A stretch of DNA of 64,000 nucleotides from Verrucomicrobiia bacterium (GTDB lineage Bacteria; Verrucomicrobiota; Verrucomicrobiia; Verrucomicrobiales; Akkermansiaceae), in assembly GCA_947462875.1 (NCBI GenBank), contig CANHQJ010000014.1:1-64000 (forward strand). The letters run 5' to 3'. A program made the position numbers and the translations under genes. Below, piece by piece: positions 41,590-64,000 of the stretch. Positions within the stretch are counted from its first letter, which is position 1. Each line of letters begins with the position of its first letter. The notes below the pieces were generated by a model. The model did not search any database. It saw only the letters and a program-made list of their open reading frames with translations, and was not told the DNA's origin.

Positions 41590-41601
41590 GGCAAAAAGAG
41601 A

Positions 41602-43209: not shown

Positions 43210-46200
43210 TTATTCCAAATCGAGCGGATCAAAGCCCTGGATCGGCGCGGTTTCCGGCTTGTGGACTTTGAGCAGCGCTTTCCCGGCACGGGCCTGCAAG
43301 GCTTTCCACATCGGATAATTCTCGTCTTTGTCCATGTGCGCCTGCACGCCGCCGCGGAGGCGGGTGACTTCGATGTATTCGATCACATCCTGCAAGGCTT
43401 TGGCCGCGATTTTCGCGTCGGCGGGAGACAGTTTTTCCATTCCCTCGGCATTGGTGACGAGGCTTTCGGCAGCGGAGGAAACACCTTTTTCAAGGCAATA
43501 CATGAGAGTGCGAAGGGCGCGGGCCTCATGGATGCTTCCTAACAATTTCACCATGCGTGGTTCGAGAGTCATTTTCAGCATGGCATCGGCAAAGTCCATG
43601 CGTTGCTCGCTGGTGATGTCGTTGTAGCCTTTCGGGCCGATGACCATGCGGCGCACGGCATGAGGGCCGATAACCTGCGCGCGCTTGGGACTCACTGCGG
43701 CAAGATCCAGCATCAGCTTGTCCACCTCGCGCGAGGGAGAATAGGAAAGCGCGGAAGCGACATCGGATAGAGTGCGCGCATCGTCTTTCTCGGCGAGTTT
43801 TTTGAGGGCGGCGAGGGATTTCTCATCGCCGATGCGAGCGAGGAGATAGAACAGCGTGGCCTGGACTTCGGGCGTCGTGGAGCTTTTTGTTTTGAGGATG
43901 GCATCGCGAAGTTCAGTAGCCCCAGAACCATCGCAGAACAGAGCCAGAGCCTCTTCGCAACCCCGGATGTCAGCGAGATCGGTGGCGCCGGTGAGGTGGG
44001 TCAGTATGTCGGGGATGGAGGATGGACCAGCCAGTACGGCGAAGGTTTTCAGGGCTTGGGCACGGATGATGGCTGACTCGTGTTTGATGGATTCCTTGGC
44101 GAGGTTCGCACCGGGAGCGTGTCTCGCAGTGGCAAGAACGGCGAGGATGCCGGCTTGATCCGCAGGGTTTTTCGAATCGGCGAACTGTGCGATGAGCGCG
44201 GAGCCAGCGCCCGACTTCACGAGAGTTGCGGCGAGGGCGCGGCTGTGATCACGAGTGCGCCAGTAATCACTTCCGAGGAAAGGAACCAGGTCCGCAAGGG
44301 CTTCGGCTTCGAGGAGTTCGACGAGGGAATCCATCGCGGCGAGCTGACGGAAAGTGTGTTTGCTTTGCGGATCGGCGAGGGCGGCGCGGCAGAGTTTGAT
44401 TTTCGCGCCGCTGCCTTCCGCGGCATCCAGCTCTTTCTGAAAGAGATCGCGCACTTCATCGGCGATGCTGGGGAGCTTGGCGGGCGCTTTGTTTTCCTCG
44501 ATGATCCTGAGTATCTTGGAGAGCGGAGTTACCACGGTCTTCCACTGGGTGGTTTCATCCTTGATGCTGATTTCTTCAATCGGGTTATCGATGAGGATGG
44601 CTTGGATCTCGTCCGCGAGATCGGCGAACAGGCCCGGATGCTGCGTTACGACGGAGGGATTGACGAGAGGGTCCTTAAAACCCGCCAAGGCGCGGATTTG
44701 GCGCGGGATTTCCGCCTTTTTCCGAATGCGGTATCCGTTTGTCTGGACGCCCTCGAGGTAGCCGAACTTGCTGAGCATCGCCTGGGCGGGGGTGTTGCGC
44801 GAACCGAACATCTGGTCATAGACTTGTTCTTCCTCGGCAATGAAAGTGAGCGGCCCGGCGAGGCGGATGACAGTGCTTTTATCCCAGATGTCGATTTTCG
44901 ATTTCACGAAGGGGCCTCCGCCCGTTTCTTCCAGAATCAAGTTGCTGAGGGCTTGTTCGACGAGTGTTTCATCGAGGCCGGCCTGGAAAGGGGTTTTGCC
45001 GAGGGCGCTTTCCGATTTCAGCAGGCTTTCCTGCAACGCGTTGCGCACGCTGTTCGGCGCGATGGCAGTCGGCGCGTCAACCGCGGTTTTCAGCAAGGCG
45101 AGTTGGCTATCGTGGTCGACGGAAGCTTTCGCGACAACCCTCACGGCGACGATGCGGACAAAGTCCGCGGGATCACTGAGGAGTGGTATGACTTTCGCCA
45201 GATTGGAAAGGATGGTGTCATTGCCACAGGCATCAAGTGCGGTGAGGGCACCATGGCGGTAGCGGGCGCTCTGATTTCCTAACAGCCCGACGAGTCGCGG
45301 GACGATGGCGGTTTCACCGGCTTGGAACCGTTTGCCCAGTTCGGCGGCGACCAGCTTGCGGGTCTTGGGCATGAAAATGTCGAGCAGGTCGCAGAGTTCA
45401 TCGGTGGAGCGTTCCTGCCACGGTTTCCCGGCAAGGTTTTTGAGGTAGTCGTTATTCAACTGACCATAGGCGCTGGCGAGGAATTGTTTGGTTTCGCGCT
45501 CGGTGGGGTAGAGTTTCTCATCGACGTCTTTGCCGGTAATCAGGGTTTGTTTGAGGATAACGGCCTGGTGGAAAACCTCGGTGGCCGTGGGGTCGCGCAG
45601 GGTGCCGTATTTTTCCGAGGGCGAATGATAGACGAAACTGCCGTCGTACATGCGGCAGAGCGTGCGCCGCCAGCGCATGTTGCGCTCGGCCATGGTGCGG
45701 ATTTCCGGGCCGCAGAGCGTGGCGCCCCAAGAGGACCACTGGGTGTGGTAATCGTGGGCATGGCCGCCGCGCGGGGTGAAGGAGGCGTGGGCGGACATCA
45801 TGGCGAAATACTTGGCGGCGTGGTCATCGCCGATGAGCTTCATGGCGAAGGCGGTGCCGGCATTTTTGCCATTGCTGTCATCGGTATCAGCGGCGACGTG
45901 GTCGCCGTACGGGATGGCTCCCTGATCCACATAGGAGCCGAAAAACTTGTGTGCACGCACGATCGCGGCATCGATCTCCGGGTGCTCAACGCCAAGTTTT
46001 TTGGCGAGAGCGATGAGGAAAAAGCAGCGATTCCCGGCGGCATTGAGAGCGCCATAGCCGGGGTTCATTTCATGCAATTTGCCGCCGTTGAAGGAGGGAA
46101 ACGCGAAGGTGTGGCCCCATGATCCGGATTTGCTCTGTCCCATCGCGGCTTCGATGGCATACTTGCGCAGGGCGGGCAGAACGAAGTCGTCGCCGGTGGC

Positions 46201-47187: not shown

Positions 47188-47192
47188 GAGTG

Positions 47193-48359
47193 TTACGGGG
47201 ATGAGGGACTGGGGCGAGTGATGAAAAGAGAAAATCCGGTGGCTTTGGCGAGGCGCTCGATGTCTTGTTGTTCCTGAGCGGAAAGCGGGCGGGCGAGATC
47301 CCACACGATGTGGACGGTCTGGCGCACCTGGGCGCGTGCCGCTTTGCGTTTGTTCAATGAATCGATCAGGTGCCGCATCAGCGCGGTGGCGCGGTCCGCG
47401 GAATCGACGACAAAACAGGCACGGCCATACCACAGCGCCTCGAAGACGAAGGTGTCATCTATCAGGCGGCTTTCCTGCACGCGCAACACCTCCACAGGCC
47501 GCGAAGTTTTGCCGAGACGCGGCAGAGACGCCGGAATCGCCTGCGCCGAAGAGGCGTCATCCGTGAGATAAACGAAACAATCGCCACGCTTCACGAGCCA
47601 TGCGAGTTCATCGGACACGGTGCGACGCGGCTGACGCGGGCGCTGGACCACGGGCGGGACCGGAGTGACCGCGGCGAGCCACGCACTGGGCAGCGGCAAG
47701 GGCAGGATGGCGAGTGCGTAAACATTGGCGCGACCGAGGTAATCGACCAGCAGCATGATCACCGCCAAAAGAATCATCACCTTGATGGCACTCAGATTCA
47801 ACTGGTCCAGGCGGTGCGCGAGGGCCATGTGGGCCTCCGACATCAGGATGGGGGGCTTTTCCTCCTGTTTCTCCAAAGTCTCCGCCTTCACCCCCGCGAT
47901 GGCATTCTCACCGCCGACGAGGTCATCCACATCACCCGTTTGCGGTTCCTCGGACCCGCGGGTTTTTTTCGCTTTTTTCCACTCGGGCTCCGCCTGGCTA
48001 TCGAGCTTGTCCATGTATTTCAGGTCAGCCTCATCCAGGCCGGCCTTGTCGAGAAAATCATCGGCGCCATCCTCGGCGAAACGGACATCCGCCACATCCT
48101 CGCTGCGTGCTTTTTCCGCGGCCTTGCGTTTGGCATCGGCAAGTTCCTGCGCGCTTTTTTGCTGTTGTGACAGGTCGGGCGCGATGCGATCGACGTGATA
48201 GGAGGAATTGATTTTGGCCAATCCCAGGGCCAAGAGCACGATCACCAGCGACGCCGCGCAAGCCCACGGAAAACGCTTGCACAGAAACCAGAGCGCAGGC
48301 ACGCCGAGCCACAACAGCACGCTGAGGTATCCAATCAGACTGAACGTTTGGGAATTCAT
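47193..48359 (-). CDS. Membrane protein of unknown function in the ExbB/ExbD operon
   Basis: 388 aa, not recognised. Two helices at the N-terminus (about residues 7-50), then a long acidic, Lys/Glu-rich region (SAQELADAKRKAAEKARSED, predicted coiled or disordered), a third helix near 195-225 (VMILLAVIMLLVDYLGRANV), and a soluble C-terminal domain of about 160 residues with alternating beta strands and helices (CFVYLTDDASSAQAIPASLP, AQVRQTVHIVWDLARPLS). It overlaps the DUF4159 gene by four bases, so the two proteins are likely partners. Confidence 0.75.
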   Translation of the reverse strand: MNSQTFSLIGYLSVLLWLGVPALWFLCKRFPWACAASLVIVLLALGLAKINSSYHVDRIAPDLSQQQKSAQELADAKRKAAEKARSEDVADVRFAEDGADDFLDKAGLDEADLKYMDKLDSQAEPEWKKAKKTRGSEEPQTGDVDDLVGGENAIAGVKAETLEKQEEKPPILMSEAHMALAHRLDQLNLSAIKVMILLAVIMLLVDYLGRANVYALAILPLPLPSAWLAAVTPVPPVVQRPRQPRRTVSDELAWLVKRGDCFVYLTDDASSAQAIPASLPRLGKTSRPVEVLRVQESRLIDDTFVFEALWYGRACFVVDSADRATALMRHLIDSLNKRKAARAQVRQTVHIVWDLARPLSAQEQQDIERLAKATGFSLFITRPSPSSP

Positions 48360-49969
48360 TTTTTCGCTTTCGAAACCGCGTCATTCCATTGAGTGAACGC
48401 GTAGTAAACCAGATTGATGCCGAGATTCATGGCGGCCTCGCGCATTTCCGGAGTGACATCGGTATAGCCCTGGGACTTCCAGGCATCATTCATATCGCCG
48501 GGGTGGTAGAAGGCAACCCATCGTCCCTCGTGTTTCACGCCTAACGGCCGCCTGCCACCGTGGTGCCAGAAGGCGGGCGCGCCATCGGGGAAACTGTAGG
48601 GGAGTTGGTAGATCATCTCGTCATCGGCGATGTCCACCATCGGCTTATCCGGAAACACCTGACGCATGAAGTGCATGAACGACTGATGGAAACGCGCGCT
48701 GCCGGCATCGGCAATCAGCATGCCGCCGTTGAGACAGTAGTCGCGCAGAATCTTGCGATCGGCTTCGCTGACATTGCCCATATCGGCATTGCCGGTGAGG
48801 AAAACAAACGGCGGGAAGCCGTCTTTGGGATATTTTTTCAGCAAGGCGATCGAGTGGCTTTCCCCCTTGCTGGCGATTTTTTTGAAGCCGGTGGCCTCGG
48901 CAAAGGCGCGGAGGAAATTCAGGTCGGCCCCGGTTTCATCCATGCCATCATCCCAACCGCCGCCGCTGTGCTCGAGGCGGATGAAGCGGATTTTGTAGTC
49001 ATCCATCCCCTCCGGCCAGCCGCCCTTCGTGCCGCCGCCCTTGCCCATCTTGCCAGCCTTGGCGTTCGATGCCTGATAGGTCGCCTGCGTTTGCTCCTCC
49101 ATCTGTTGATCGACCTTGGTGTCATCGAGATCGGGGATTTCAAACAGGATCGCCGAGTTCGGACGCAAGCTGAGAGTCTGTTTCTTTTTCTTTTTCGGTT
49201 TAACCATTTTCACCATCGCCACAACCGGATTGCCACTGCCCTGCGGCACCTTGTAGGCCTCCACGCAGCCACCGAGACTGAGCAGATACGGGATGACGCA
49301 AAGGAAAAAGAGGTGGGTAAATACGCTGAGATACACGCTGCGGCGGTGGCGCGGATCGCGACCGTGCGTGCGGAGATCTTCCAGCACATGGTCCCCGCCC
49401 ATCGGAGCACCATGCTCCTGCGTGAATGCGGCATACACCGAGCGGCTGCGCAACATCACATGGGTCCATGCGGCATAGAGCGCGATGGCAAGCGCGGGCC
49501 AGGCGAGACTCCACCACAAATACAGCATGGTCACCTTGTCGAGCTTCGCGCCATGGATGGCCAGGCCGCGATCGTGGACCGAGCCGCACGCCTGCCAGGT
49601 GAGCCAGAGGTAAGCGGTCACGAGCGCATAGACGGCAAAGATCGGCACCCGCAGCGCCTGATAGGTCAGACGATTGCGCACCATGGCGGCGCCGCCCGCC
49701 AGTGCGCAAAGCACGGCGAGCAAACCGCACAGTTGAAACACCAGCATCAGCGAGGATGAAACATGACTGCCCTGGAACAAGATGGCGATCTCGGCATGGC
49801 TTTCCAGAAACCTGGTGAAAGCGGACGGCAGCCAGAAGAACACCGCCGCTGCCAGACCCGCGAGCAGAAACACCGCCAACGCCACCACGCGCGCCTTCGA
49901 AGCGGACGGACTCGTAGGAATCTCGTCCACCCTGACTGTGGGGATCTCGGCTTGTGGTTGGGCAATCAT
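48356..49969 (-). CDS. Multi-pass membrane protein with C-terminal DUF4159 domain
   Basis: 537 aa. About five hydrophobic helices fill the first 245 residues, followed by a basic KPKKKKKQ segment and a glycine-rich linker (GKMGKGGGTKGGWPEG). The last 215 residues are DUF4159-like (IRFIRLEHSGGGWDDGMDET, FPPFVFLTGNADMGNVSEAD, MLIADAGSARFHQSFMHFMR, FYHPGDMNDAWKSQGY). DUF4159 resembles Rossmann-like glutamine-amidotransferase folds, without a visible catalytic Cys. DUF4159 genes often sit near ExbB/ExbD and TPR genes in PVC bacteria (general recollection). The function is unknown. Confidence 0.8.
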   Translation of the reverse strand: MIAQPQAEIPTVRVDEIPTSPSASKARVVALAVFLLAGLAAAVFFWLPSAFTRFLESHAEIAILFQGSHVSSSLMLVFQLCGLLAVLCALAGGAAMVRNRLTYQALRVPIFAVYALVTAYLWLTWQACGSVHDRGLAIHGAKLDKVTMLYLWWSLAWPALAIALYAAWTHVMLRSRSVYAAFTQEHGAPMGGDHVLEDLRTHGRDPRHRRSVYLSVFTHLFFLCVIPYLLSLGGCVEAYKVPQGSGNPVVAMVKMVKPKKKKKQTLSLRPNSAILFEIPDLDDTKVDQQMEEQTQATYQASNAKAGKMGKGGGTKGGWPEGMDDYKIRFIRLEHSGGGWDDGMDETGADLNFLRAFAEATGFKKIASKGESHSIALLKKYPKDGFPPFVFLTGNADMGNVSEADRKILRDYCLNGGMLIADAGSARFHQSFMHFMRQVFPDKPMVDIADDEMIYQLPYSFPDGAPAFWHHGGRRPLGVKHEGRWVAFYHPGDMNDAWKSQGYTDVTPEMREAAMNLGINLVYYAFTQWNDAVSKAKK

Positions 49970-49993
49970 GCGGTCGTGCGGAAAAACAAGGAG

Positions 49994-50467
49994 TTACTTG
50001 AAAAGGTCTTCTTCGGTTTGTTCCACGGGAGGGACTTGCGGACCAGCCTTCTTCTCCTGCAATTTTTCCTCGATATCCGATGGAGCGGGTGCGGGTGCCG
50101 CTTCGGGAGCGGCCTCGGGCGCGGGTGTTTTTTTCTCATCGGCGGGTGCGGGCGCGGGCGCGGGTGCGGCGGGTACGGCCCCTCCCGCGAGCCGAGTGCT
50201 GAGGTCCTGCGGTTTGAGACCGTGCTTGGCAGCGATTTCACTCAATGATTTGGTCGCCTCATCGGCGGCCATCTCCATGCGCTCCTTTTCCCCCAGCGCC
50301 GCGGAGGATTTGTCCGCACCGGATTTCAGGAAATACGGAATGCTCGTGCCGACCACGACCACGAGGTGAACGATGATGGTGAACAGAATGATGCGTTTAA
50401 CACTGCTGCCCTGAAATGTCTCCATCAATTGGTCCGGTGTGATTTCTTCTTTTGGGGTATTCGTCAT
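49994..50467 (-). CDS. TonB-like single-pass protein lacking a TonB C-terminal domain
   Basis: 157 aa. A short cytoplasmic N-terminus, one helix (about residues 26-46, IILFTIIVHLVVVVGTSIPY, with a His in the membrane as in TonB), a small helical region (ATKSLSEIAAKHGLKPQDLS), and a Pro/Ala/Glu linker of about 50 residues resembling the TonB spacer. It then stops (EDLFK), with no room for the roughly 80-residue TonB receptor-binding domain. Placed right after ExbB and two ExbD genes, it is probably the energy-transducing arm of this system, contacting something other than a TonB-box receptor. Confidence 0.72.
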   Translation of the reverse strand: MTNTPKEEITPDQLMETFQGSSVKRIILFTIIVHLVVVVGTSIPYFLKSGADKSSAALGEKERMEMAADEATKSLSEIAAKHGLKPQDLSTRLAGGAVPAAPAPAPAPADEKKTPAPEAAPEAAPAPAPSDIEEKLQEKKAGPQVPPVEQTEEDLFK

Positions 50468-50503
50468 GTTAATGTTGGTTCAACGTTTCTTTTTTGCGAT
50501 AGA

Positions 50504-50926
50504 TTACTCGACGGCATTGTCTCCCACGGCCTCGATGATGCCACCCGCGCTCGCGATGGCCTGAAGCACCGGTTCGAACACCTCGCGCGGCTGAGATTTG
50601 TCACACCTGAACTGAACGTGCCGTTGATCGTCAGTCACCGTGTTGGTGAGCAAGGCGCGCACGCCCCACTCCACATCCTTGGCATTGTCCACGCGGGAGC
50701 CGTCAAAATAGATGTCCCCTTTGTCGTCCACCACCACTCTGGCGACGACATCGACGGTGGTTTTTGTCACATGCTCGGATGTGGGAAGCGCGACCTTGAG
50801 TTTTCCGTTGTCCTTGGACACTTCGCTGCAAACCAGGAAAAAGATGATCAACAGGAACGCGATGTCTCCCATGCTCGCAATGGGCAAGGCGATGGGTTTC
50901 CTTTTCTTTTTGCGTGAGCGTCTCAT
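50504..50926 (-). CDS. ExbD/TolR family protein (first copy)
   Basis: 140 aa from the ATG at 50926. Basic N-terminus (RRSRKKKRK), then the single ExbD helix with the proton-pathway Asp in MGDIAFLLIIFFLV, and a periplasmic domain (VVVDDKGDIYFDGSRVDN). It forms the stator-like motor with ExbB/TolQ. The start is one base past the stop of the other ExbD. The two copies differ strongly outside the membrane helix. Confidence 0.88.
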   Translation of the reverse strand: MRRSRKKKRKPIALPIASMGDIAFLLIIFFLVCSEVSKDNGKLKVALPTSEHVTKTTVDVVARVVVDDKGDIYFDGSRVDNAKDVEWGVRALLTNTVTDDQRHVQFRCDKSQPREVFEPVLQAIASAGGIIEAVGDNAVE

Positions 50927-50927
50927 G

Positions 50928-51338
50928 TCACTTCTCGTTTTCCACAATGGCTACCACGCCGTCGTGCGCACTGATGGCGGCGAGGGCTTGGAAATAATTT
51001 TCATACGGCGTGCCCTGCGCGGACTCCAGCATGATCACTCGTTTTTCCGCTTCCTGCTTCGCGAGTTCCAGAGCTGCCAGCCGTTCATTGAGCTCCTTCA
51101 TGCTGGTTTTTTTGTCATTGAAAAAAACCTCTTCGCCGCGCAGGTTGATGATGGGTGTTTTCTCCGATTGCGCCTGAGTGGACTTCTCCCCCGCGGGAAG
51201 ATCGGCCGTGATGGATTTGACCTTGATCAGAGTGGTGGCGACCAGGAAATAGATGATCAGAAGAAACGCGATGTCCGAGAACGAATCCGTGGGGATCGCC
51301 ATATCGCGGTTCTTCTTTTCTTTTTTGGGGCGTTTCAT
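50928..51338 (-). CDS. ExbD/TolR family protein (second copy)
   Basis: 136 aa. A basic N-terminus (MKRPKKEKKNRD) and a helix with the conserved Asp (FSDIAFLLIIYFLVATTLI). The periplasmic part includes PAGEKSTQAQSEKTPIINLR and a coiled segment (MKELNERLAALELAKQEAEK). It lies between ExbB and the first ExbD, 30 bases after ExbB. Two ExbDs per motor are seen in several phyla and may form a heterodimer in the ExbB pentamer. Confidence 0.88.
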   Translation of the reverse strand: MKRPKKEKKNRDMAIPTDSFSDIAFLLIIYFLVATTLIKVKSITADLPAGEKSTQAQSEKTPIINLRGEEVFFNDKKTSMKELNERLAALELAKQEAEKRVIMLESAQGTPYENYFQALAAISAHDGVVAIVENEK

Positions 51339-51368
51339 GGTTCTAACCGATGGAATGGAACCGGTAAA

Positions 51369-52013
51369 TCAGTGGTGGGTCAGAATGAATTCCATGATCT
51401 CGCTGGTCCCTTTTTCAATCTCCAGTTCGATTTCGTCAGACCACCGGTTGAACACGCTTTGCGGAATCACAGCGGCCAGCGCGATGAGCAAGCCCGCGGC
51501 AGTGGTGATCAGGGCCTCGGCGATGCCGTTCGCCACCATGCCGCTTCCTCCGCCGGAACTACCCGCTTCCTGCAGGCCGACAAAGGAGGCGATCATACCG
51601 GTAACAGTGCCGGTCATACCTAACAATGGCGCGGCCACACCGATGGTGGTCAGCACGTCCAGGCGCTTTCCGACGAGACTGATCGCCTGCGCGCTGTAGT
51701 CGCTCATGACCTCTCCCACGACCATGCGCATGGTTTCCGGGCTCTCCTTCTTGTCATTGAGCTGTTTGTACGAGCGCAAGCCGGCGAGCAAGACCGATGC
51801 AATCGGCCCGCGCATCGCCTCGCACTCGCCGATCGCGGCCGCGATATCGTTCTGACGCAGATGGGTGAGCACCTTGGCCCGCAACGAGCGGGTGTCGATC
51901 TTGCGATTGGCGCGGAAGGCCTGCCAGCGGTCGAAGACCACGGCAAGGCTGACGAGGCTGCACAGCATCAGCGGGATCATCAAGGGACCGCCTTTAAGGA
52001 TTTGTTCGATCAT
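51369..52013 (-). CDS. MotA/TolQ/ExbB proton channel family protein
   Basis: 214 aa from the ATG at 52013. Three helices in the ExbB/TolQ layout: one near the N-terminus (GGPLMIPLMLCSLVSLAVVF), a cytoplasmic loop (RSLRAKVLTHLRQNDIAAAI), and two near the C-terminus with the family motif APLLGMTGTVTGMI and ALITTAAGLLIALAAVIPQ. It forms the proton channel with ExbD. No tolB, pal or tonB-dependent receptor gene is nearby, so it is assigned to the giant-protein operon rather than to Tol-Pal or iron uptake. Confidence 0.92.
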   Translation of the reverse strand: MIEQILKGGPLMIPLMLCSLVSLAVVFDRWQAFRANRKIDTRSLRAKVLTHLRQNDIAAAIGECEAMRGPIASVLLAGLRSYKQLNDKKESPETMRMVVGEVMSDYSAQAISLVGKRLDVLTTIGVAAPLLGMTGTVTGMIASFVGLQEAGSSGGGSGMVANGIAEALITTAAGLLIALAAVIPQSVFNRWSDEIELEIEKGTSEIMEFILTHH

Positions 52014-52045
52014 GGTATGGTAGTTGTTAGAGTGTGGGAGAAATA

Positions 52046-55300: not shown

Positions 55301-58300
55301 GGATTTTCCGCATCGGCCGCGGCGGGCATGCCATCGATGAGGAAGATCGTTTGTCCATCGTTCGGATAACCCGTGAGCTCGAACCGTCGGATCGCGGCGC
55401 GGGGCTGATGGAAAAGGGCGCGGTAGCGGATCAGCCCCGAGTAGCCCGGGTGCCCGGTTTCCACCATGGGCAGCGGCGCGGCGGAGAGGCTTTTCACCGT
55501 GGCGGAGAGATACTTGATCGATGCGCGATTCGAGGTGAGCTCCATCTTTTCCTGCCAGTCCTCCGGCAGCGCGCGGGATTCCGGCTTGGAAACCTCGATG
55601 CCGCCGCGGAAGGTGGGAAACGAGGAAACATGCGGCCTGCCATCCCATACCGGCGTGTCTTCGGGGAAACGGGCGCGTGTGGTCCAGTCCTTGCCATTGA
55701 GCGATGTTTGCAGCACGAAGCGCGTGAGTTGCTGGCCTTTTTCGCCGATATCGATCGCCATCTTGTCGAGCGGGACGTTGTCATTGAGATCGATGCCGAA
55801 AACGCGCGCGTTTTCCGTGTCTCCCACATTCCCCTGCCATCCGGGATACTCCTTGGCGCTGATGGTCATGTTGGGATCGCGGCCGGGGGCGCTCTCCGAA
55901 GCGAACGCCAGAGCCTGCGCGCCGGTGGTCGGCACGATGCCCTCAAACTCACCGCTGAAGGGCGAGGTTTCCTTCAGAACGAGTTGGCGGATTTCATCAC
56001 CGCTGGATGTTTGCAAGCCGATGGTGACTTCATCGATGCCCGGCGTGATGCTGTGATCGGGATCGGTGACGCGCACATAGACCGGATTTCCCGGACGCAC
56101 CGCGCGGGTGCCGAGAGCGGCCTGCGCGGTGGAAAGGCCGAGCTCCTCGATGTCGAGCCGGCGCTCACCTTCACGCGCGGGAAACGCACCGGCGGAAAAG
56201 GCGAGGCGCGCATCCGATGCCACACCGATCACGATCTCGGGATCGGCGGGCAGGTCTTTCATCTTCGCGCGGAAACGTTCGGAGTAGCCGAAACGGATCT
56301 CGTCCACGCCGAGAATTTGCAGCACCTTGTCGCCCGGAGTCGGCGGACCAAGAGCGGTGGGCACATCCGCGCGGAATTTTTCCTTGCTGTCGCCGAGCTG
56401 ATAGAGAAGCACGCGCTCGCGGTCGCCGGACTTCGCCCAGATCTCCACTTCGATATCGGCACCGACACCGGAAACATTCAGCGTGGGGTCACGCAGATTG
56501 ATCTTCACCGCCTCACCGGGGACGATGACCGTTTTATCCTGCGATGGTCCGAGCTCGATCTCGCTGGCCTCCACGAGCTTGCGCATCTCGTAATGGATTC
56601 TGCCGCGGAGAATCAGCGCATCCGCGTGTTTCGGCTCCTGGCGCAGGACCTGCTCGATCTCCTCCAAGGCCTCAGCGTAGCTCTCCTGATCCATCAGGAC
56701 CTCGGCACGGGCGTAGCGGACACGTTTGCGAAACTCCGGCTCCTTGAGCTTCATCAGCGTATCGAGCTCCGTCATCGCGGCACCGAAATTTTTCGAAACG
56801 CGATCCACCTTCACCGAGCCGAGCGCGGCCATGAGCTGCATTTCCGAGCCCGCGTATTCGGCAGCCTCGGCGACCTTGCGGTACCAGGCACGCGAGGTAG
56901 GCAGGGCGCCCTTGCGGAAAGCGAGATCGGCATAGGCGATCTTGAGACGCGCATCCTGATCGACGCTGAACGAGCCCTCCGCCTGACGTGCCCATATGGT
57001 GAGTTCCTTGATGAGATTTTCGGCCTCCTGATCGCGGTTCGCCTCGATCGTGCGCTGGAGCAGCCAGAAGCCGTAATCGATCGAAAGCGAGCGCAGCACG
57101 GGAATCAACTGATCGGTGTGACCGAGATAGAGTTGCCAGGCGGACTCCAGATTGCCGAGGGCATACTCGGCTTGGGATTTGTAGATCGGAAAGGCCGGGT
57201 CGGTCTGATCGACAGGAATTTCCACGGCTCCGATTTTCGCGGCGGCGAGACCGGCGGTGGCGCGCAGGTTGGCGAGGATTTCGCTGAACTTGGGAAGGTT
57301 CACCGTGCGTGCGTCGATGGACTGGGACGCGCATCGCGAGAGGGTCAGCGCCAGCGAGGCATTGCCATCCGCGACTGACTTCGCGGCGAGTTTCGCATAA
57401 GAATCCGCTGCCACGATGGCCCAGTTGCCATCACCCGCGAGCGCCGCAGACCACAGCCCGGCCGCAATCTCCTCGAACTGTGCCGCGCGGTTCGCGTCGG
57501 CGGATTCCTGGATGACGCGTGCGGCGAGCGCCTCGTATCCCTGCCTTTTCGGATAGGGACCGAGCGGAGCGAGATCGGTGAAGAGCGATTGCACCGACGC
57601 ACGCAGCGGCTCCGACCAGGTCGGAAGTTTCGCCACAGGTGCCAATCCGAGAAGATTCGGAAAATACCCGGCATTCGTGGCGCGCTGCATGACCGCGGAA
57701 AAAGCAGCCTCCACCGCGGCGGCATCCGCATTCGGTGGCAGTGCCAGCAGTTCGCGAGAAAATTCCTTCTCCTCCTCGCTCTCCGGCGTGGGTGCGTTTT
57801 TTTTGACCTTCTTGCGTTTCTGCTCCGTGACGGGAGCGGGAGCGGTGGCGAGCTCGGGACGTTCCGTGGTAAGGGCCTTGAGCTCATCCTCGGAAATGAG
57901 ATAGGGCACCAGCTTGCGATTCTTCGCGGCGGGCACCTGGAGGTGAACGATGATGCGTGCCTGATCGACAGGCAATGTGCGCAGAGCGGCGAGCAACGGA
58001 GCGGCTTTTTCCGCGCGGCGCGGATTCGTGAACGTGGCAAACACCCCCGAATCTCCCGCGTTGAAATGCATCCAGCCGTGAGCCACCGCGAGCGAGCCCT
58101 CGAAGGGAGCGGCGGCGATGAGCTCTTTGGCCGCCTTCAACGGGGCGTCCATGAGCGTGTCAGGCACCGCGCGTTTCGCGCCGAGAGCCTCCGCCATTTT
58201 TTCCGCAAAAGGAACGGCCTCGATGACCCACGCGATCCTCGCCTTCACGGCGGGGCTGGTATGTTTCGCCGCGGCGAGCCCTTGCAGTGCGGTGAAGAGT

Positions 58301-58935
58301 TCCGGCTGTCTGTAGGTGAAGGTTTCCAGATCCGCCAGCAAATCGGTGAGAACATCGTCGTATGCCTCGCGCGGCTCGTCGCTCTGGTAAATGGCGGTCA
58401 GCCACTGCGCGATGGCAACCAGATCCTTGCGTTCATCGGCTTTGCCAAAAAACCAGGCATCGAACTTGCGGACTTTGCCGAAAGTGCGCAGACGCACGCC
58501 TTCCTCGCGCATCAGCAGATAGGCGGAATCGGTATCGCCGAGGTGATTGATGAGAATCCGGTAGCAGCGTGGCGCGGCGATGGCGGCGGTGGCGGGATCG
58601 AGATTTTGCTGCTTGAGCAGCTTGCGATACAAGCCCACGGCCTGCCGCCACTCACCGGCGAACTCTGCGGATTGGGCGGCGCTGAAAAGCAGCTTCGGAG
58701 AGTCCGCGGCATTCGCGGCGAGCCATGGCTTCACGGCGGCGAATGCGAGGGCGGAGCGGTTTTCCGTGAGACCGAGGTCGAGGATCTCCGTCGCGCCCGC
58801 TTCCGTTTGTGAGGCGGCCGCCTTGAACGCGGTGATGCGGTCATCCAGCGGCGCGGCGATGGCGAGGCCGATGGTCAGAGGCAGGGCGGAAAGACGAAAC
58901 ATAAAGGATGCGTTAGAATTAAGTACTACGTTCAT
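52372..58935 (-). CDS. Giant secreted TPR-containing protein (2187 aa), paralog of the next gene
   Basis: The signal peptide follows MFRLSALPLTIGLAIAAP, so the start could be the ATG at 58902; the ATG at 58935 is given because it overlaps the upstream stop (ATGA) like other joins in this operon. Layout by eye: helical solenoid (about 30-780, TPR-like, e.g. AEVLMDQESYAEALEEIEQV), a long beta-sandwich-rich middle (about 800-1830) with repeated Ig-like phrases (PGNPVYVRVTDPDHS, SSSGGTATVKAVETEEHSGR), and a C-terminal TPR array (about 1870-2187; RAHAEYLLGNLAQEYADLAK, EEYVKLAYKYPNNELIPSVM). It is closely related in layout to the upstream gene. Probably a periplasmic or outer-envelope scaffold. Function unknown. 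Confidence 0.8.
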   Translation of the reverse strand: MNVVLNSNASFMFRLSALPLTIGLAIAAPLDDRITAFKAAASQTEAGATEILDLGLTENRSALAFAAVKPWLAANAADSPKLLFSAAQSAEFAGEWRQAVGLYRKLLKQQNLDPATAAIAAPRCYRILINHLGDTDSAYLLMREEGVRLRTFGKVRKFDAWFFGKADERKDLVAIAQWLTAIYQSDEPREAYDDVLTDLLADLETFTYRQPELFTALQGLAAAKHTSPAVKARIAWVIEAVPFAEKMAEALGAKRAVPDTLMDAPLKAAKELIAAAPFEGSLAVAHGWMHFNAGDSGVFATFTNPRRAEKAAPLLAALRTLPVDQARIIVHLQVPAAKNRKLVPYLISEDELKALTTERPELATAPAPVTEQKRKKVKKNAPTPESEEEKEFSRELLALPPNADAAAVEAAFSAVMQRATNAGYFPNLLGLAPVAKLPTWSEPLRASVQSLFTDLAPLGPYPKRQGYEALAARVIQESADANRAAQFEEIAAGLWSAALAGDGNWAIVAADSYAKLAAKSVADGNASLALTLSRCASQSIDARTVNLPKFSEILANLRATAGLAAAKIGAVEIPVDQTDPAFPIYKSQAEYALGNLESAWQLYLGHTDQLIPVLRSLSIDYGFWLLQRTIEANRDQEAENLIKELTIWARQAEGSFSVDQDARLKIAYADLAFRKGALPTSRAWYRKVAEAAEYAGSEMQLMAALGSVKVDRVSKNFGAAMTELDTLMKLKEPEFRKRVRYARAEVLMDQESYAEALEEIEQVLRQEPKHADALILRGRIHYEMRKLVEASEIELGPSQDKTVIVPGEAVKINLRDPTLNVSGVGADIEVEIWAKSGDRERVLLYQLGDSKEKFRADVPTALGPPTPGDKVLQILGVDEIRFGYSERFRAKMKDLPADPEIVIGVASDARLAFSAGAFPAREGERRLDIEELGLSTAQAALGTRAVRPGNPVYVRVTDPDHSITPGIDEVTIGLQTSSGDEIRQLVLKETSPFSGEFEGIVPTTGAQALAFASESAPGRDPNMTISAKEYPGWQGNVGDTENARVFGIDLNDNVPLDKMAIDIGEKGQQLTRFVLQTSLNGKDWTTRARFPEDTPVWDGRPHVSSFPTFRGGIEVSKPESRALPEDWQEKMELTSNRASIKYLSATVKSLSAAPLPMVETGHPGYSGLIRYRALFHQPRAAIRRFELTGYPNDGQTIFLIDGMPAAADAENPLLIERELAAGLHEIQVWRNAGRDTMLKSKPQLLCDEPGKQDLVACPDAMFDPSTFPPDAKALLPQPATLAKNAAGTMEVSFGDQTRARLVRLVIHGFEGGAPSIRKVTLTDRSGKALLPVAQDYMTLRENMQLEVLPGDQITARYDDSRSATPKRNRHEQRLTVAFNDALVTASFLTYITTEEGRELVLEPIRRFRFDDPVAIVIDDADMDSSPEKDIIEFKVVSSSGGTATVKAVETEEHSGRFLGRVFPVPGEPARSSEIKVAEGGTITATYLDAENLIPGIPTERSVLIEHARYTEPKVAAYPMSSKVLEKPAGVVKAGKQSDASKEEVILPRRTIDYQYADGTPAVHAAIVGASLRFDVVVPHLALAGSSEVNAFVQTDAGRKASKEELKKPFDVAAPGTLKLKGALVQAAVLAPSGYQIDATPVAPTNEPPLEEGRFSFSIPLILGDLPERSFATKAAEALSDSALPEGLAVKVGDIVHMGFPYKDAKDQVQWKLLDFKVESHAFLDVMQNGYQEALAKAFVGEKLYLRLIDRGLDRGPDRDVAKVSIEASSGIKTEYELQETDAHSGIFKGVFALSYAEEKTPAQLPPVALNGFPVRYGDDVKISYAGDPSVPAQAISVNRGADGFIEPFSKRFTGDEMAVKTSFTLAECFFELAKKHREMEEESLARREIAQARKLLAEAIATHRDDEMRAHAEYLLGNLAQEYADLAKNEESKLPMYQDALARFSKIPSDYPETEFAAKAQFKTALVYEKMGETQNAVEEYVKLAYKYPNNELIPSVMSRLGGYFQETGLALKKQADPLREKEDDASKAEVLRLDELSYPEFLNAAMVFAKLQERFPDDPLAGLAGLRSAQNYMRAHQYQKAIQVFTIVYSNETYDDREIRSQAIYWAGLSNERLAASYSDQSYKAKGEAINSAYQLYRRVTFDYPDSVWAKYARGRLADPVFARIIELETLERERMIESLKEMRKK

Positions 58936-61900
58936 CGTTGCTCAGCCTCCAATCGTTCCAGTTCGAGTTTGTTTTCCAGGTCCAGCAGACTTTGCTGGGA
59001 CAGTTGGCCGCGGGCGAAGGCGGCCCATTCGCTTTCCGGGAAATCATAGGTCAGGCGCTTGAACATCGAGTAGGCGGCCATCGGCTGACGCAGCGCCTGG
59101 TAGCTCATGCCGGCCCAGTACATCGCCTGCGCGCGGATGGTTTTGCCATCGTAGCCCTGTTCGGCGATGACGCGCTGGAAGGCATCGATGGCTTCCTGGT
59201 GCTTGGCGGCGCGCATGTAGGCCTGCCCGGCACGCAGACCAGCCTGCCCGGCCAATGAGTCGCTGGGGAAACGCTCCTGCAAGCGACCGAAAATCTGTGC
59301 CGTCTTCAGGTATTCCGCGACCGCCATTTTTTTCAGCGCCTCGCCCTCGAAGCGGGCATCCTTGTCTTCCTCCGGTTTTTCCAACAGCGGCTTCGCTTGC
59401 GCTTCATACTCGCTGGCTTTTTTGAGGAAATGGGTGCCGAGCCGCGCCATGGACGTGGCGAGGAACTCGGAGTCAGGATACTTGTAGGCGAGCTTCACGT
59501 ATTCCTGCGCGGCGATTTCCGGCTCTTTCAGGCGCTCGTAAATGGTGGCGATCTGGTACTGCGCCTTCGAGGCATGGATGGTCTGGCTGTAGCTGCCGGT
59601 GACATTGAGGAAACGCGATAGCGCGGCGCGGTAGCGGGTTTCCCGGACTTCCGGTTCCTTGGTGGCATCTGCCTCTTCCATGGTCAGCGTGCCTAACAGA
59701 TACTCGGCATGGGCGCGCGTGTCGGGATCGGTGAACTGATCCATCGCTTTGGAAAGCAGCTGCTTGGCACTCTCGTATTCGAGCGCGGCGGCATCGTGCT
59801 CTTCGAGCTTGCGGTGGCGTTTGGCCACTTCCAGATAGGCCTCGGCGAGCGAGAACTGCGTGCGCATGGCGATCTGCGGGTCGTCGTATTTTTTCGAAAA
59901 CGGCTCAATGGTGCCATCCGCGCCCTTGCTGACCGTCACTTGCAGGATGTCGGTCTTGAGGCCCTTCGCATCGGTGTATCGCGCGGCGACGGTATCGCCG
60001 TAGGTCACGGGAAATCCGTTCTGGCGCACATCGTAGGGCGCGGCGGCGTCCGGCTTCGCCTCCGCTGGCGCGGCGTAGGAAAGCTGATAGCCCGCCTTGA
60101 AGATGCCCGTGTGCGGACCGCTCTCGTGCAGTTCCACCGTGTGCTTGGCACCGGATTTCGATTGCATGAGCACGCGCACCACATCCGGTGCGTCGGTGAG
60201 ATCCGCGCCGAGATCGATCACGCGCAGGTTGAGATTTTCCCCGACGAAGGCGCTGGTCACCGGTGCGCGGAATTCCTCGTTCATGATATCGAATACCGGA
60301 TGCGTCACCACCTGCGTGCTGGTGGTGAGCCATTGCTCCTTGCCTTCCGCATCGGTGAAGCAAAAGCCGAAATGCACACGCTCGCCGGGACGGACCACGA
60401 GACCGTGGGGCGAGAGCGTCACATCATCCGAGCCATCCAGCGAGTTTCTCGCGCGATTCGCCATCTCGCGGCGCTCTTCGTCGGTGAGCGCTCCATACTC
60501 GGGCAGCGTGCCGACGATCAAAGGCACGGAAAGATAGAAACGGTCAAACTCCAGATTTTCTCCGGCACTCATCGGGGACTCCTTGAGATAAAAAGGCAGC
60601 AGCGGAATTTGCGACCAGCGATCGTTGTGACCGATCGGCTTCGCCAGAATGCCCTGCAGCTCCAGTGTGCCCGGGGCATTGATATTGAAGCCCGTGGCCG
60701 TTTCGCCAGCGGCCTTGCGTCCGGCATCCGTCTGCGCATAGACCGAGACATGGGAGGCGACGCCGAGTGCGAGTTGCGGCGCGACGAGTTCCAAGAACAT
60801 GCTCTGGCCGAGCACCGCCTGGAAGCCCCCCTCGGGAGGTTTTTCAGCAGGGAGAATGGTTTGCTTCAGCTGCCAACTCTCCGCCACCGCTTCGCTGGCG
60901 ATGCGGTTTTCCTGATCCTGCGCCTGGTTGCGCGGCTCGAAGCCATGTTGCAGCGAACGCATGGTGCCTCGCGGGATGGGGCTGACAGTGGCGTGCGAAA
61001 GCTGGAACTGCGGGGCACGGAAAGACGCGTGCCGGATCACGGCGATGCGCTCGGTGGGAACGCCGGGACGGTTGTTTTCCTGGTCCAGATAGCGCGCGGT
61101 GATGGCGGCACCACTCGCGACCTGGATCTGGTTTTCCCCGGCACTGCCGGATACCGGCGTGATCGTGAGTTGGAAAATACCGGTGGAGTCGCCAGTCTCG
61201 ATGGCCTCATACTCCTTCGATCCAGCGGCGCTTTCCAGCTTCACCGTGACCTTGTCCCGCTCGACCGTGGCATCCCTGTCGGCATCGTGGATGGCGAGGG
61301 TGAGCGGCTTGTCGTACGAGAAACGTAGTAGTTTCTCATAGTACGGCTGCGGCTCGCCCAAACGGGCATCCATGCGCGGCTCCATGTCCGCAAACTCCGC
61401 GAGGGCATCGGTGAAGGAGACTGTCAGAAAACGCTCGTGGCGTTCCTTCGCCTTGGTGACAAAACGGTCGTCCACATAGCGCACGGAAATTTTATCACCG
61501 GTGAGCATTTCCAGCGTGTCGTTCTTGTTCAGCGCCGCGAAGTCCTGCGCGACGGGCAGCACGACCTTGCCTGCGGAGTCGGTGAGCGCGAGTTTGTTCA
61601 ACGCGGGTGCCGGGCCTTCCTGCTCGACCATCACGAGGCGCATCAGGCGAGCGCGCGAGTCCTTGGCGAACTTCACCTGGAACTCCGTGCCCCCGGCATT
61701 CGCCTCCACCGTGGCGGGGGCGTTGCGCTGATCGACAAACGCGGCGGGGAACGAGGCGGGATCGAAAAACGAATCCGGGCAATCCGTTAGATTTTCCGGA
61801 TCGATGAGATTCGCCTGCAGTTTCACATTCCGGCCGAATCCGATCTGGTTGAGCCAGCCGGTCGCCCAGATTTCCAGGCGATGGATGCCCGGCTTCAGAG

Positions 61901-64000
61901 CGACTTCGCCTTGCAGTTTGGCCTGATCCAGCTCCGCGATCACGCGACCATTGACCAGCATGACAAAACCAGCCGGCTGCCCTTGATTTTTCTCCGCCTT
62001 GATGCGCGGGTCAGGAGTGAACGAGCCGAGTTGTAGCGCGAAGCGGCGGATGACGCTTTCCTTCTCGTAGAAACTCGCCTGGAAACGCACGACCACCGCG
62101 GGATTCTCATGCGTGCCATTGCGCAGCCATTTCACATCGGTAGGGATCGATGACGGCAAGGCCTCCGAGGGACCGGCGACATTTTTCGAGAATGCCATCT
62201 CCGGCTGATGCGCGAGCCAGCCGGATGCCATGTGCTGGCGGAGATCGGTCAGCTCCTTGATCGGGCGCGCACCGTAGTGGTGATTTTTGGCGTCTTCATT
62301 GACCACGGTGACAGAGGGCTTCCAGGGATTTTCGATCGGGTATTTGGTCGGCGGATAGGTGGCGATGGTGGTCCAGTCGGTGGGATTCATCGCGGTCTGC
62401 ACGATGAATTTTTTCCACTTCGCACCTTGCTCGGCAGCGGTGATGGTCAGAGTGCCGAGGCTGCTGTTGTCATTCAAATCGACCATGAACTCGGGTCGGA
62501 CATCCTTGGCCGGAACGGGGCGCCAGGCAGGGTATTCCTTGTTCGGGCTGATCACCATGTTCGGCGCGCGGCCCGGTTCCGAGTTCTGGGCGAAGGCCTG
62601 CGCCTGCGCGCCGGTGGTCGGCACACTGCCCTCGAACCACCCGCTGTGCGTGGCGGTCTCGCGCAAGGTCACCCGTGACACGGAATCGCCGCTGGAGCTG
62701 CTGACACTGACGGTGAGTTCATCGATTTCCGCACTGCGACTGCGATCGGGATCGACCACGCGGACGTGGATGGGATTGCCGGGCTTGGCGATGTCCGATA
62801 GAAAACGATCGGCCCTCTCGGGATCATCGCCCTCCAACGCACGGGCGGCGATGCGGGCTTTCACCGCACCTTTGAGATAGTCGCCCTGGTCCTTGCCGCC
62901 GATTTCCTGCATCAGCGCCTGCATGTCAGCCGTGCGCTGTTCGGCCTCGGTGAGAAGCTTGCGCGCGGAAGCCATCAGAACGGCGTCCGAGGCGATCGTG
63001 ATCGGACCGCCGCGTTTCGCATCGGTGAGATTCATTTTGCTGAGGAACGCATCCGAATAGGCGTAGAAAACCTCATCATCGCCGATGACTTGCAGCTTGT
63101 TATCACCGGGCGCGGGCGCCCCCAGCATGGTCGGCAATTCACCGCGGAACTTGGTTTTTTCATCGCCGAACTGGCGCAGGAAAAAGGTTTCCTTGTCGCC
63201 TGAGACCGCCCACACCACCACCTCGATCTCGGTGCCCGCTCCGGAAACGGCGAGGGTCGGATCGCTGAGAGTGACCTTGAGGTTTTCGCCCGGCACGAGC
63301 GAGGTCTGGCCGGTGGAGGAGCCGAGCTCCACCTCGGTGGCTTCCATCAGCTTCTGGCGCTTGAGCTGCACCTTGCCTAACAGAATGCGCGAATCCGCAT
63401 GGTTCGGCTCGCGGGCGAGGATGGAATCGATGTCGTCCTTGGCGTCATCGAAATTCTCCATGTCGAAGTTCACCTCGGCGCGGGAGTAGCGGATCTCCGT
63501 CCAGATTTCCGGCACGCGTTCCAGCTCCAGCTCGGCGAGTGTTTGCAGGGCGGCATCGAAGTTTTTCCCGATGCGTTCCGCGCGGGCCTTGCGCAGGGCG
63601 GCGTCATGGCGCACCATCAGCTCGGCATATGCCTTGTTTTTCTGGACACGATCGTAAATTTCATGGGATTCGCGCAACTGGCCGCGCTGCAGGGCGATGT
63701 CGCCGTAGGCAATCTCGATCCGTGCTTTTTCCGTGATGGTCAGAGGTGAGGCGGATTCCCGCGCCCAATCGAGCAGCGACTTGATGAGCTGTTGCTGGCG
63801 CTCTTCATCGCGACCGTAGATCACACGTTGCAGGGCCCACATCAGATAGGGCACGGAGAGTTCGCGATGCATCGTCACGAAAGTCTCCCAGTGGCCATCC
63901 AGCAGGTTCCTGGCGCTGTCCTCATTCCCCGCCATCCACTCCGCTTGCGATTGATAAAGCGGGTAGGACGGATGATTCGGAGCCACGGGGATGACGATGA
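58932..64000 (-). CDS. Giant secreted TPR-containing protein, 5' end outside the window
   Basis: At least 1684 residues; the frame remains open to the window edge, so the N-terminus is missing. The visible part follows its neighbour from about residue 590 of that protein: solenoid (QSQAEWMAGNEDSARNLLDG), a TPR-like stretch (FDDAKDDIDSILAREPNHAD), Ig-like beta domains (GNPIHVRVVDPDRSRSAEID, SSSGDSVSRVTLRETATHSG, VSVYAQTDAGRKAAGE) and a C-terminal TPR array (AAQEYVKLAYKYPDSEFLAT, FQRVIAEQGYDGKTIRAQAM). If collinear with the neighbour, the full protein would be near 2200-2300 aa. It overlaps the next gene by four bases and is the most upstream visible gene of the ExbB/ExbD operon. Confidence 0.8.
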   Translation of the reverse strand, partial: IVIPVAPNHPSYPLYQSQAEWMAGNEDSARNLLDGHWETFVTMHRELSVPYLMWALQRVIYGRDEERQQQLIKSLLDWARESASPLTITEKARIEIAYGDIALQRGQLRESHEIYDRVQKNKAYAELMVRHDAALRKARAERIGKNFDAALQTLAELELERVPEIWTEIRYSRAEVNFDMENFDDAKDDIDSILAREPNHADSRILLGKVQLKRQKLMEATEVELGSSTGQTSLVPGENLKVTLSDPTLAVSGAGTEIEVVVWAVSGDKETFFLRQFGDEKTKFRGELPTMLGAPAPGDNKLQVIGDDEVFYAYSDAFLSKMNLTDAKRGGPITIASDAVLMASARKLLTEAEQRTADMQALMQEIGGKDQGDYLKGAVKARIAARALEGDDPERADRFLSDIAKPGNPIHVRVVDPDRSRSAEIDELTVSVSSSSGDSVSRVTLRETATHSGWFEGSVPTTGAQAQAFAQNSEPGRAPNMVISPNKEYPAWRPVPAKDVRPEFMVDLNDNSSLGTLTITAAEQGAKWKKFIVQTAMNPTDWTTIATYPPTKYPIENPWKPSVTVVNEDAKNHHYGARPIKELTDLRQHMASGWLAHQPEMAFSKNVAGPSEALPSSIPTDVKWLRNGTHENPAVVVRFQASFYEKESVIRRFALQLGSFTPDPRIKAEKNQGQPAGFVMLVNGRVIAELDQAKLQGEVALKPGIHRLEIWATGWLNQIGFGRNVKLQANLIDPENLTDCPDSFFDPASFPAAFVDQRNAPATVEANAGGTEFQVKFAKDSRARLMRLVMVEQEGPAPALNKLALTDSAGKVVLPVAQDFAALNKNDTLEMLTGDKISVRYVDDRFVTKAKERHERFLTVSFTDALAEFADMEPRMDARLGEPQPYYEKLLRFSYDKPLTLAIHDADRDATVERDKVTVKLESAAGSKEYEAIETGDSTGIFQLTITPVSGSAGENQIQVASGAAITARYLDQENNRPGVPTERIAVIRHASFRAPQFQLSHATVSPIPRGTMRSLQHGFEPRNQAQDQENRIASEAVAESWQLKQTILPAEKPPEGGFQAVLGQSMFLELVAPQLALGVASHVSVYAQTDAGRKAAGETATGFNINAPGTLELQGILAKPIGHNDRWSQIPLLPFYLKESPMSAGENLEFDRFYLSVPLIVGTLPEYGALTDEERREMANRARNSLDGSDDVTLSPHGLVVRPGERVHFGFCFTDAEGKEQWLTTSTQVVTHPVFDIMNEEFRAPVTSAFVGENLNLRVIDLGADLTDAPDVVRVLMQSKSGAKHTVELHESGPHTGIFKAGYQLSYAAPAEAKPDAAAPYDVRQNGFPVTYGDTVAARYTDAKGLKTDILQVTVSKGADGTIEPFSKKYDDPQIAMRTQFSLAEAYLEVAKRHRKLEEHDAAALEYESAKQLLSKAMDQFTDPDTRAHAEYLLGTLTMEEADATKEPEVRETRYRAALSRFLNVTGSYSQTIHASKAQYQIATIYERLKEPEIAAQEYVKLAYKYPDSEFLATSMARLGTHFLKKASEYEAQAKPLLEKPEEDKDARFEGEALKKMAVAEYLKTAQIFGRLQERFPSDSLAGQAGLRAGQAYMRAAKHQEAIDAFQRVIAEQGYDGKTIRAQAMYWAGMSYQALRQPMAAYSMFKRLTYDFPESEWAAFARGQLSQQSLLDLENKLELERLEAEQR

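Follow-up and report, generated by a model that had tools for sequence, protein, structure and literature searches.

A conserved operon joining an ExbB/ExbD-type motor to giant TPR/Ig-like proteins: a putative trans-envelope force machine of PVC bacteria

Introduction

The known proton-driven machines that cross the envelope of bacteria are few: Ton, Tol, Agl-Glt and the motor of the type IX secretion system. Should another be added to this short list? The question is raised by the first 64,000 nucleotides (called the window in what follows) of contig CANHQJ010000014.1, contig 14 of a Verrucomicrobiia genome (assembly GCA_947462875.1; 97.7% complete, 39 contigs), where genes for an ExbB/ExbD-type motor stand in one operon with genes for giant proteins made of tetratricopeptide repeats (TPR) and immunoglobulin (Ig)-like domains. 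Twelve minus-strand genes, here called A to L, form this operon (43210-70840, 27.6 kb); they are transcribed in the order A-B-C-D-E-F(ExbB)-G(ExbD)-H(ExbD)-I-J-K-L, and the window end cuts through C. A preliminary description, made from the window alone, had counted nine complete genes and one partial gene running in one direction with gaps below 40 bases, which is how 43210-64000 reads on the minus strand; the operon of about 21 kb that it proposed is real, but it runs on past the window, where C is completed and B and A are added.

The answer that we favor, with some but not great confidence, is that this operon encodes a proton-driven trans-envelope force machine of bacteria of the Planctomycetes-Verrucomicrobia-Chlamydiae (PVC) superphylum.

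A motor and giants inherited together

How close is the tie between the motor and the giants? An even sample of 194 genomes of the phylum was searched, at most the three best candidates per genome being scored for giants. Twelve loci in 10 of these genomes match the giant profile at E ≤ 1e-80 (not counting four weaker hits, in frames of 883-1106 aa, to the TPR end of the giants), and a search with the ExbB, F, yields 12 places at E ≤ 3.5e-36, the next among the matches listed standing at 6.3e-26. The two sets coincide one to one (12/12 and 12/12), at distances of 397-4342 bases: ExbB/ExbD genes regularly standing apart from the giants, the pattern named at the outset as the one that would speak against a tie, are not seen. 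In the ExbB tree (79 rows) the 70 operon ExbBs lie on one side of a branch (support 99/98) that is present in 100% of 200 bootstrap trees; the 9 outside rows, seven paralogues of this genome and two from others, mostly sit on long branches, and the program cautions about joins of that kind. Across 33 chosen loci (528 pairs) the identity matrices for F, G, J and the giant are closely correlated (Spearman 0.88-0.92), as are those for B and the giant (0.86, 105 pairs).

Closer to home, a search with giant D finds matches in 10 of 38 genomes (our own and 37 relatives), and within the genus giants occur in 5 of 10 (G000, G003, G005, G006, G009); the system is accordingly an accessory one. Stretches from the giant-bearing relatives, together with 11 contigs of nine genomes further off that were reached via J, were mapped with tblastn and profiles, and fall into three layouts. 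Type 1 runs A-B-giant(-giant)-E-F-G-H-I-J-K, with L found only in Akkermansiaceae-like loci; type 2 runs giant-A-B-F-G-H-I-J; type 3, seen in three genomes of one family or order (G016, G017, G033) and cut or incomplete in G027 and on contig 111 of G031, runs B-giant-F-G-H-small-J-A-like.

A wider set of loci was gathered with a pattern taken from the J alignment, which matched 324 stretches, 247 of them encoding a relative; the best 80 were kept as named loci, all of which have J by selection and some of which are copies of other genomes used here. Among the 59 of the 80 in which J has 4.5 kb or more of sequence upstream, an ExbB is present in 56, two ExbDs in 54, a TPR or giant gene within 6 kb in 52, and an I-like gene in 52. 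The titles of the named loci, mostly metagenome bins, include Verrucomicrobiota, Kiritimatiellota, Lentisphaerota, Planctomycetota and others; some rows labeled Planctomycetota or Kiritimatiellia nest within the Akkermansiaceae clade of the ExbB tree, so that labels may be wrong or genes may have moved. Conservation of gene order across Verrucomicrobiota and Planctomycetota was the check first proposed for this locus: the order does recur across families, and its reach into Planctomycetota is to be read with that reservation about titles.

The association of these genes is far beyond chance, their order recurring across the phylum and its families, and in scattered PVC bacteria the core of the operon is passed on as one unit. 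That unrelated genes merely came together in one operon, whether by chance or through selfish co-transfer, would accommodate the patchiness within the genus; it is very improbable when set against an association that persists over deep divergence and through varied gene orders, with a one-to-one match of ExbB subtype and giant, and the co-occurrence counts bring it close to refutation.

The motor

F (51369-52013, 214 aa) is a proton channel subunit of the ExbB/TolQ type, matching Pfam MotA_ExbB at 3.1e-24 (taken with a longer start) and with 85.6 bits against a cut-off of 22.9. The first and second subunits of the ExbD/TolR type, G (50928-51338, 136 aa) and H (50504-50926, 140 aa), match Pfam ExbD at 2e-16 and 2e-15, with 57.4 and 60.6 bits against a cut-off of 25.4. 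When conserved residues are counted with 11 copied loci dropped, our own protein entered twice and a few non-operon paralogues included, the ExbB channel residues Thr136 and Thr171 are each found in 75/75 rows, Asp22 of G in 78/80 (the remaining two being gaps) and Asp21 of H in 79/80 (the remaining one a gap): as far as alignments can tell, the channel residues of the motor are intact. This genome has seven further ExbB loci besides F, so that other motors are available for ordinary Ton work.

Two candidate levers

What would such a motor move? The preliminary description tied ExbB/ExbD to the giants and counted a TonB-like arm among the parts. Gene order, ExbB phylogeny and channel residues bear out the tie, but the arm is not the sole candidate for a lever. 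The arm itself, I (49994-50467, 157 aa; characterized from an alignment of 6), has a single membrane helix with His34, followed by a Pro/Ala-rich stretch and an acidic tail, and the helix histidine is present in 77/79 rows. Pfam gives I no match at E ≤ 0.01; a TonB C-terminal domain was not found in it, nor a TolA C-domain in either I or J. In TonB and TolA a membrane-helix histidine of this kind contacts the motor, according to a 2025 survey (PMC12204202).

The second candidate is J (48356-49969, 537 aa), a probable force transducer with a histidine helix, a linker and a folded domain, DUF4159 (Pfam 6.5e-30). The histidine, His219 in the last helix, is kept in 65/89 rows. A model of J has long helices at residues 23-57, 70-94, 100-133, 145-173 and 212-230, then a low-confidence stretch (232-308), then the folded C-domain. 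Its best match in the PDB is 4i66, a solved DUF4159 protein (Z 23.3, root-mean-square deviation (rmsd) 1.8, 186 residues aligned); amidotransferases (Z up to 9.3) and IFT52 (8.2) come next, and unrelated helical bundles reach Z 9.6 with the membrane part. As modeled, the fold of the C-domain is amidotransferase-like. The C-domain has conserved Asp, Glu and His positions, but no Cys is conserved in 90% of rows, which makes amidotransferase chemistry unlikely. The five helices, together with a Lys/Arg-rich loop just before the last of them (174-211, 7 Lys+Arg) presumed to lie inside, suggest that the DUF4159 domain is probably periplasmic.

The giants and their TPR companions

C (58932-66542, of which 58932-64000 lies in the window; an open reading frame (ORF) of 2536 aa) is the tandem relative of D (52372-58935, 2187 aa), a TPR/Ig-like/TPR protein defined by its ORF, Pfam, a partial model and PDB matches; the two are 39% identical over their matched stretch. 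Tandem giants are found in G000, G003, G006, G009 and G031, and in a midpoint-rooted FastTree the five C proteins group together (support 1.0), next to the D-type. Ahead of them come two TPR proteins whose genes lie beyond the window end: A (contig 69035-70840, 601 aa) and B (contig 66539-68977, 812 aa), the latter with TPR at both ends and a middle of different make-up. A hydropathy scan finds N-terminal hydrophobic segments, at the cut used, in A, B and C; in D and L no segment reaches that cut, and their N-termini are signal-like by eye only.

Residues 1000-2187 of D were modeled with 22 homologous rows (predicted local distance difference test score, pLDDT, 84.9; predicted template modeling score, pTM, 0.59), giving a long run of beta domains and then 14 TPR-type helices. 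The giants had first been taken for solenoids, which suits the TPR end but not the beta domains. Profile searches match D to BamD (2e-7), CpoB (1.3e-4) and a "cell surface protein", 8c8k (2.4e-4), and Foldseek identifies the match of 8c8k type as a Nitrosopumilus surface layer (S-layer) protein (8c8m, E 1.3e-12). Eukaryotic TPR proteins head the VIA comparison of the model (Z up to 19.8, rmsd 6-12), and the tightest fit shown for the TPR end is to YbgF (2xev; Z 16.2, rmsd 1.9 Å, 124/124). Since repeats and beta sandwiches find matches in many proteins, weight is given here to the YbgF and S-layer matches alone. Model residues 7-328 also match a segment of galactose oxidase (Z 14.3, rmsd 2.9, 130 aligned), which we take to be that enzyme's discoidin/CBM32-like domain; C has a weak, below-cut-off Pfam match of F5/8-type-C kind (0.0086) that is consistent with it, and a discoidin-like domain in the giants is probable.

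The Ig-like domains of the giants are related to those of S-layer proteins (Kustd1514 of anammox bacteria and that of Nitrosopumilus maritimus), but here they are flanked by TPR, linked to a motor and far below the family cut-off: with the S-layer family NF052345, D scores 45.6 bits (1.8e-12) and the window part of C 34.4, against a whole-protein cut-off of 1400.

Three further loci may be recorded. In L116, from the cultured strain Rubritalea profundi, giant D is represented by two ORFs of 1631 and 877 aa, through a frameshift or a sequencing error. In G085 (contig 35, 79911-81487) a frame of 883 aa, which weakly matches the TPR end of the giants, adjoins an ExbB; it is possibly a small relative of the system. 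On contig 111 of G031 (L082:9694-19521) a type-3 giant is followed, by eye, by short repeats and toxin-antitoxin genes; this is perhaps a broken copy, and the same genome also has a type-1 operon.

Likeness to known machines

Is the operon a known machine in unfamiliar dress? TolB_N (PF04052) has no match in any of the 38 genomes, with or without the operon, and has matches in 3 of 14 controls; a strict Tol-Pal system is rejected on these counts, and a classical one is unlikely. The statement first made, that no TonB receptor, TolB or Pal gene accompanies the motor, is correct for contig 14; elsewhere the genome has six TonB receptor matches and three OmpA-domain matches, the latter on contigs 1, 2 and 3. 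The OmpA-domain gene of contig 1 has another ExbB and a TPR gene about 3 kb away (L187:8643-13122); these are possibly a separate Tol-like set without TolB. With Tol-Pal the operon shares a TolQ/TolR-like motor and a YbgF/CpoB-like TPR, but the genome offers no TolB match, the contig no Pal and the levers no TolA C-domain; with Ton it shares ExbB/ExbD and a histidine helix with a Pro-rich arm, but it contains no receptor and no TonB C-domain was found.

Might it then do part of the Tol-Pal job, the upkeep of the outer membrane or cell wall, in a group that has no TolB? Such an assignment would suit the TolB_N counts, the resemblance of the giant's C-terminal TPR to YbgF/CpoB and BamD, and the NCBIfam scan, in which F scores best with TolQ (107 bits; ExbB 72) and ExbD1 (G) with TolR (33.8 bits). 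Yet these scores are below the tolQ and tolR cut-offs, the contig has no OmpA/Pal gene and the OmpA gene near another ExbB may belong to its own set; the giants are also so patchy (10/38 and 10/194 genomes) that most TolB-less genomes manage without the operon. We regard such an upkeep machine as unlikely, a little more so than the next explanation.

In Myxococcus xanthus, AglR, AglQ and AglS make up a motor of one TolQ and two TolRs. The operon shares this composition, and with it TPR proteins, a giant TPR protein and a TonB-like arm. The Glt table lists several TPR proteins, a giant TPR protein and an arm with a proline-rich stretch, and GltG has an FHA domain ahead of its membrane helix (PMC3169522); one J homologue (L100:12170-14482) likewise begins with an FHA domain (7.1e-15). 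Does the operon, then, work as Agl-Glt does, its motor moving TPR carriers in the periplasm, and adhesins at the surface, along the cell? The gene layout and the FHA domain fit, and the probable discoidin-like and S-layer-like domains would befit an adhesin. Against this, the only Glt match in NCBIfam (family models only, A and B left out) is GltJ, a low-complexity match of 19.9 bits with a cut-off of 450; no outer-membrane barrel family (cf. GltA/B/H) appears in a Pfam scan of the operon proteins, nor was a barrel noticed by eye among the listed recurrent neighbors; and GltI is described as an intracellular scaffold (PMC13104615), whereas C and D have signal-like N-termini. The Ig and probable discoidin-like domains of the giants are a further difference from the Myxococcus machine. 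A mechanism of just this kind is unlikely, if worth keeping in mind.

Nearer in phylogeny is the 2025 survey, which places PVC transducers with a von Willebrand factor A (vWA) domain beside TPR-tolQ-tolR-tolR, and describes them as inner-membrane proteins with a histidine helix, a linker and a globular C-domain, the two tolRs being unlike (PMC12204202). The operon has TPR, tolQ, two tolRs and a histidine-helix protein, in the same superphylum; but J has DUF4159, no vWA that was found, and about five membrane helices, and the part of that account at hand says nothing of the giants, of A, B, E and K, or of arm I. A vWA C-domain in J was considered but is not supported, Pfam giving only DUF4159 at E ≤ 0.01; vWA folds are also absent among the fold matches listed for J, an absence that does not by itself exclude vWA. 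At L182:8441-12280 a single protein joins DUF4159 to a YfbK-type vWA and also has TPR and zinc-finger matches, which links the DUF4159 system with the vWA transducers; no ExbB was found near this fusion. A separate ExbB-ExbD-ExbD-TPR (1037 aa) cluster of our own genome (L190:3320-8290) is perhaps the PVC cluster of the 2025 paper. As far as the available texts allow a comparison, Agl-Glt and these vWA transducers are the closest known descriptions.

DUF6288 and a possible glycan link

The last gene, L (43210-47187; 1325 aa from 47187, a more likely start than 47433), encodes a protein with DUF6288 (6.8e-84) and HEAT repeats (HEAT_2, 4.8e-10). Of the PDZ/HEAT-like protein of the preliminary description the HEAT half thus survives, while no PDZ model matches at E ≤ 0.01 and DUF6288 takes its place; as an operon member, moreover, the DUF6288/HEAT gene holds good here but is seen in one lineage only.

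Does L disclose what the machine works on? One suggestion would be that the operon supplies power for taking up or displaying polymers such as glycans, and that DUF6288 proteins are its clients. Six type-1 genomes (G000, G003, G005, G006, G009, G031) have 12-27 DUF6288 matches and the other 32 of the 38 have 0-11, and some DUF6288 genes adjoin genes that we call, by their motifs, sulfatase-like and sialate-esterase-like. (These counts are of matches, not genes, and the candidates scored per genome differ between the 38- and 194-genome counts.) But the link vanishes across the 194 genomes: the nine giant-bearing genomes other than G000 have 0-1 match, and G121, in which giants are lacking, has 8. 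A DUF6288 gene of about 1460-1510 aa is also kept, without any giant, in nine genomes of genus g3 (taken here to be Akkermansia). DUF6288 as a universal client, which separates type-1 carriers among the 38, fails among the 194 and is rejected. So is a general tie to feeding on sulfated glycans: in 24 chosen genomes (several values being at least about 62) sulfatase counts are unlinked to the operon, with 2, 3 and 10 in carriers G050, G095 and G203 and 55 in G004, which has no operon. The tests of a glycan role are mixed to negative, and this explanation is distinctly improbable.

A proposed machine

How might a force machine assembled from these parts work? The following steps are suggested. 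1) ExbB and the unlike ExbDs G and H would form a proton channel, by analogy a five-to-two wheel. 2) I and J would dock on the ExbB wheel in the manner of TonB and TolA, as their conserved histidine helices suggest; the "hand" of J would be its DUF4159 domain, I having only a short tail. 3) Force would pass from I/J to the secreted TPR proteins A and B and on to the giants C and D, a path suggested by gene order and co-inheritance; the TPR ends of the giants would grip partners, and their Ig-like/discoidin-like middle would bind wall, outer-membrane or surface glycans. 4) More speculatively, the output would be mechanical work at the surface or wall. The degree of confidence given at the outset applies to the first three steps.

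Several observations weigh against this reading and should be taken together. DUF4159 loci L144, L145 and L182 lack motor, TPR and arm; L143, L168, L169 and L177 have an ExbB but no TPR or giant gene within 6 kb; nine named loci, these last four among them, miss one or two of ExbB, the ExbD pair, TPR/giant and I. The giant on contig 111 of G031, a genome outside the 194, has no ExbB in the remaining 2.7 kb of its contig. Shared descent alone would give the correlation found between the identity matrices of operon genes, so that the matrices speak for joint inheritance and not for contact. The J histidine column is a gap in 19/89 rows and another residue in 5/89. The J model was built from 16 sequences (pLDDT 74.2, pTM 0.46), and a hydropathy scan cut at 1.6 flags four of its helices, not five: the fourth scores 1.56, and reaches at least 1.6 in 58/88 rows; the periplasmic position proposed for DUF4159 depends on there being five. 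Finally, no outer-membrane protein was recognized among the operon products.

What would the machine be for? Among candidate roles, work at the surface is slightly ahead: surface adhesion or gliding-like transport is a tentative first choice, upkeep of the outer membrane or wall a doubtful second, polymer uptake or export is unlikely, and some other role less likely still. A bolder conjecture, which we hold to be doubtful, is that this is a separate class of machine, ancient in PVC bacteria, with an ExbB wheel, two unlike ExbDs, two levers and surface giants, serving gliding or surface transport independently of the machines of Myxococcus and Bacteroidota.

Borders, remaining genes and neighbors

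Spacing within the operon ranges from -4 to 57 bases: C-D, D-E and J-K overlap by 4 bases, and the gaps are 32 (E-F), 30 (F-G), 1 (G-H), 36 (H-I), 24 (I-J) and 5 bases (K-L). E (52046-52375, 109 aa), the spacer gene between giant and ExbB in type-1 loci, has conserved Trp/Arg motifs and no hydrophobic segment. K (47193-48359) encodes a membrane protein of 388 aa with 4 hydrophobic segments and no match in Pfam or NCBIfam; its homologues directly follow J in type-1 loci. Upstream of A, at 123 bases, lies QueF, and the gap between them holds a hairpin and T-run that resemble a terminator (a pattern match only); downstream of L the next gene begins after 114 bases. On the same strand downstream (38755-43095 of the window) are two genes 12 bases apart that we presume to be sialate-esterase-like and, with a cytochrome-c domain, PSD1-like. 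Genes that by their motifs are MoxR-like, DUF58-like and BatA-like lie downstream of the operon in L108, L110, L132 and G203 contig 1; other recurrent neighbors are sulfatase-like genes, DUF1501-like genes and shadow frames.

Conclusions

A literature search, made mostly without subscription papers and preprints, found no paper on DUF4159 or DUF6288 and none joining DUF4159 with ExbD. The 2025 PVC survey, in the part accessible, anticipates the TPR-tolQ-tolR-tolR portion of the system; the giants, the DUF4159 lever, the small arm and the one-to-one tie of ExbB to giant are not described there (PMC12204202). The interest of the locus is that one compact, conserved operon brings together a motor, two candidate levers and very large proteins that may bear the load, in a bacterial order where TolB was not found. 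It offers a testable case for a further, DUF4159-bearing class of force transducer, and for mechanical work at the envelope of PVC bacteria.

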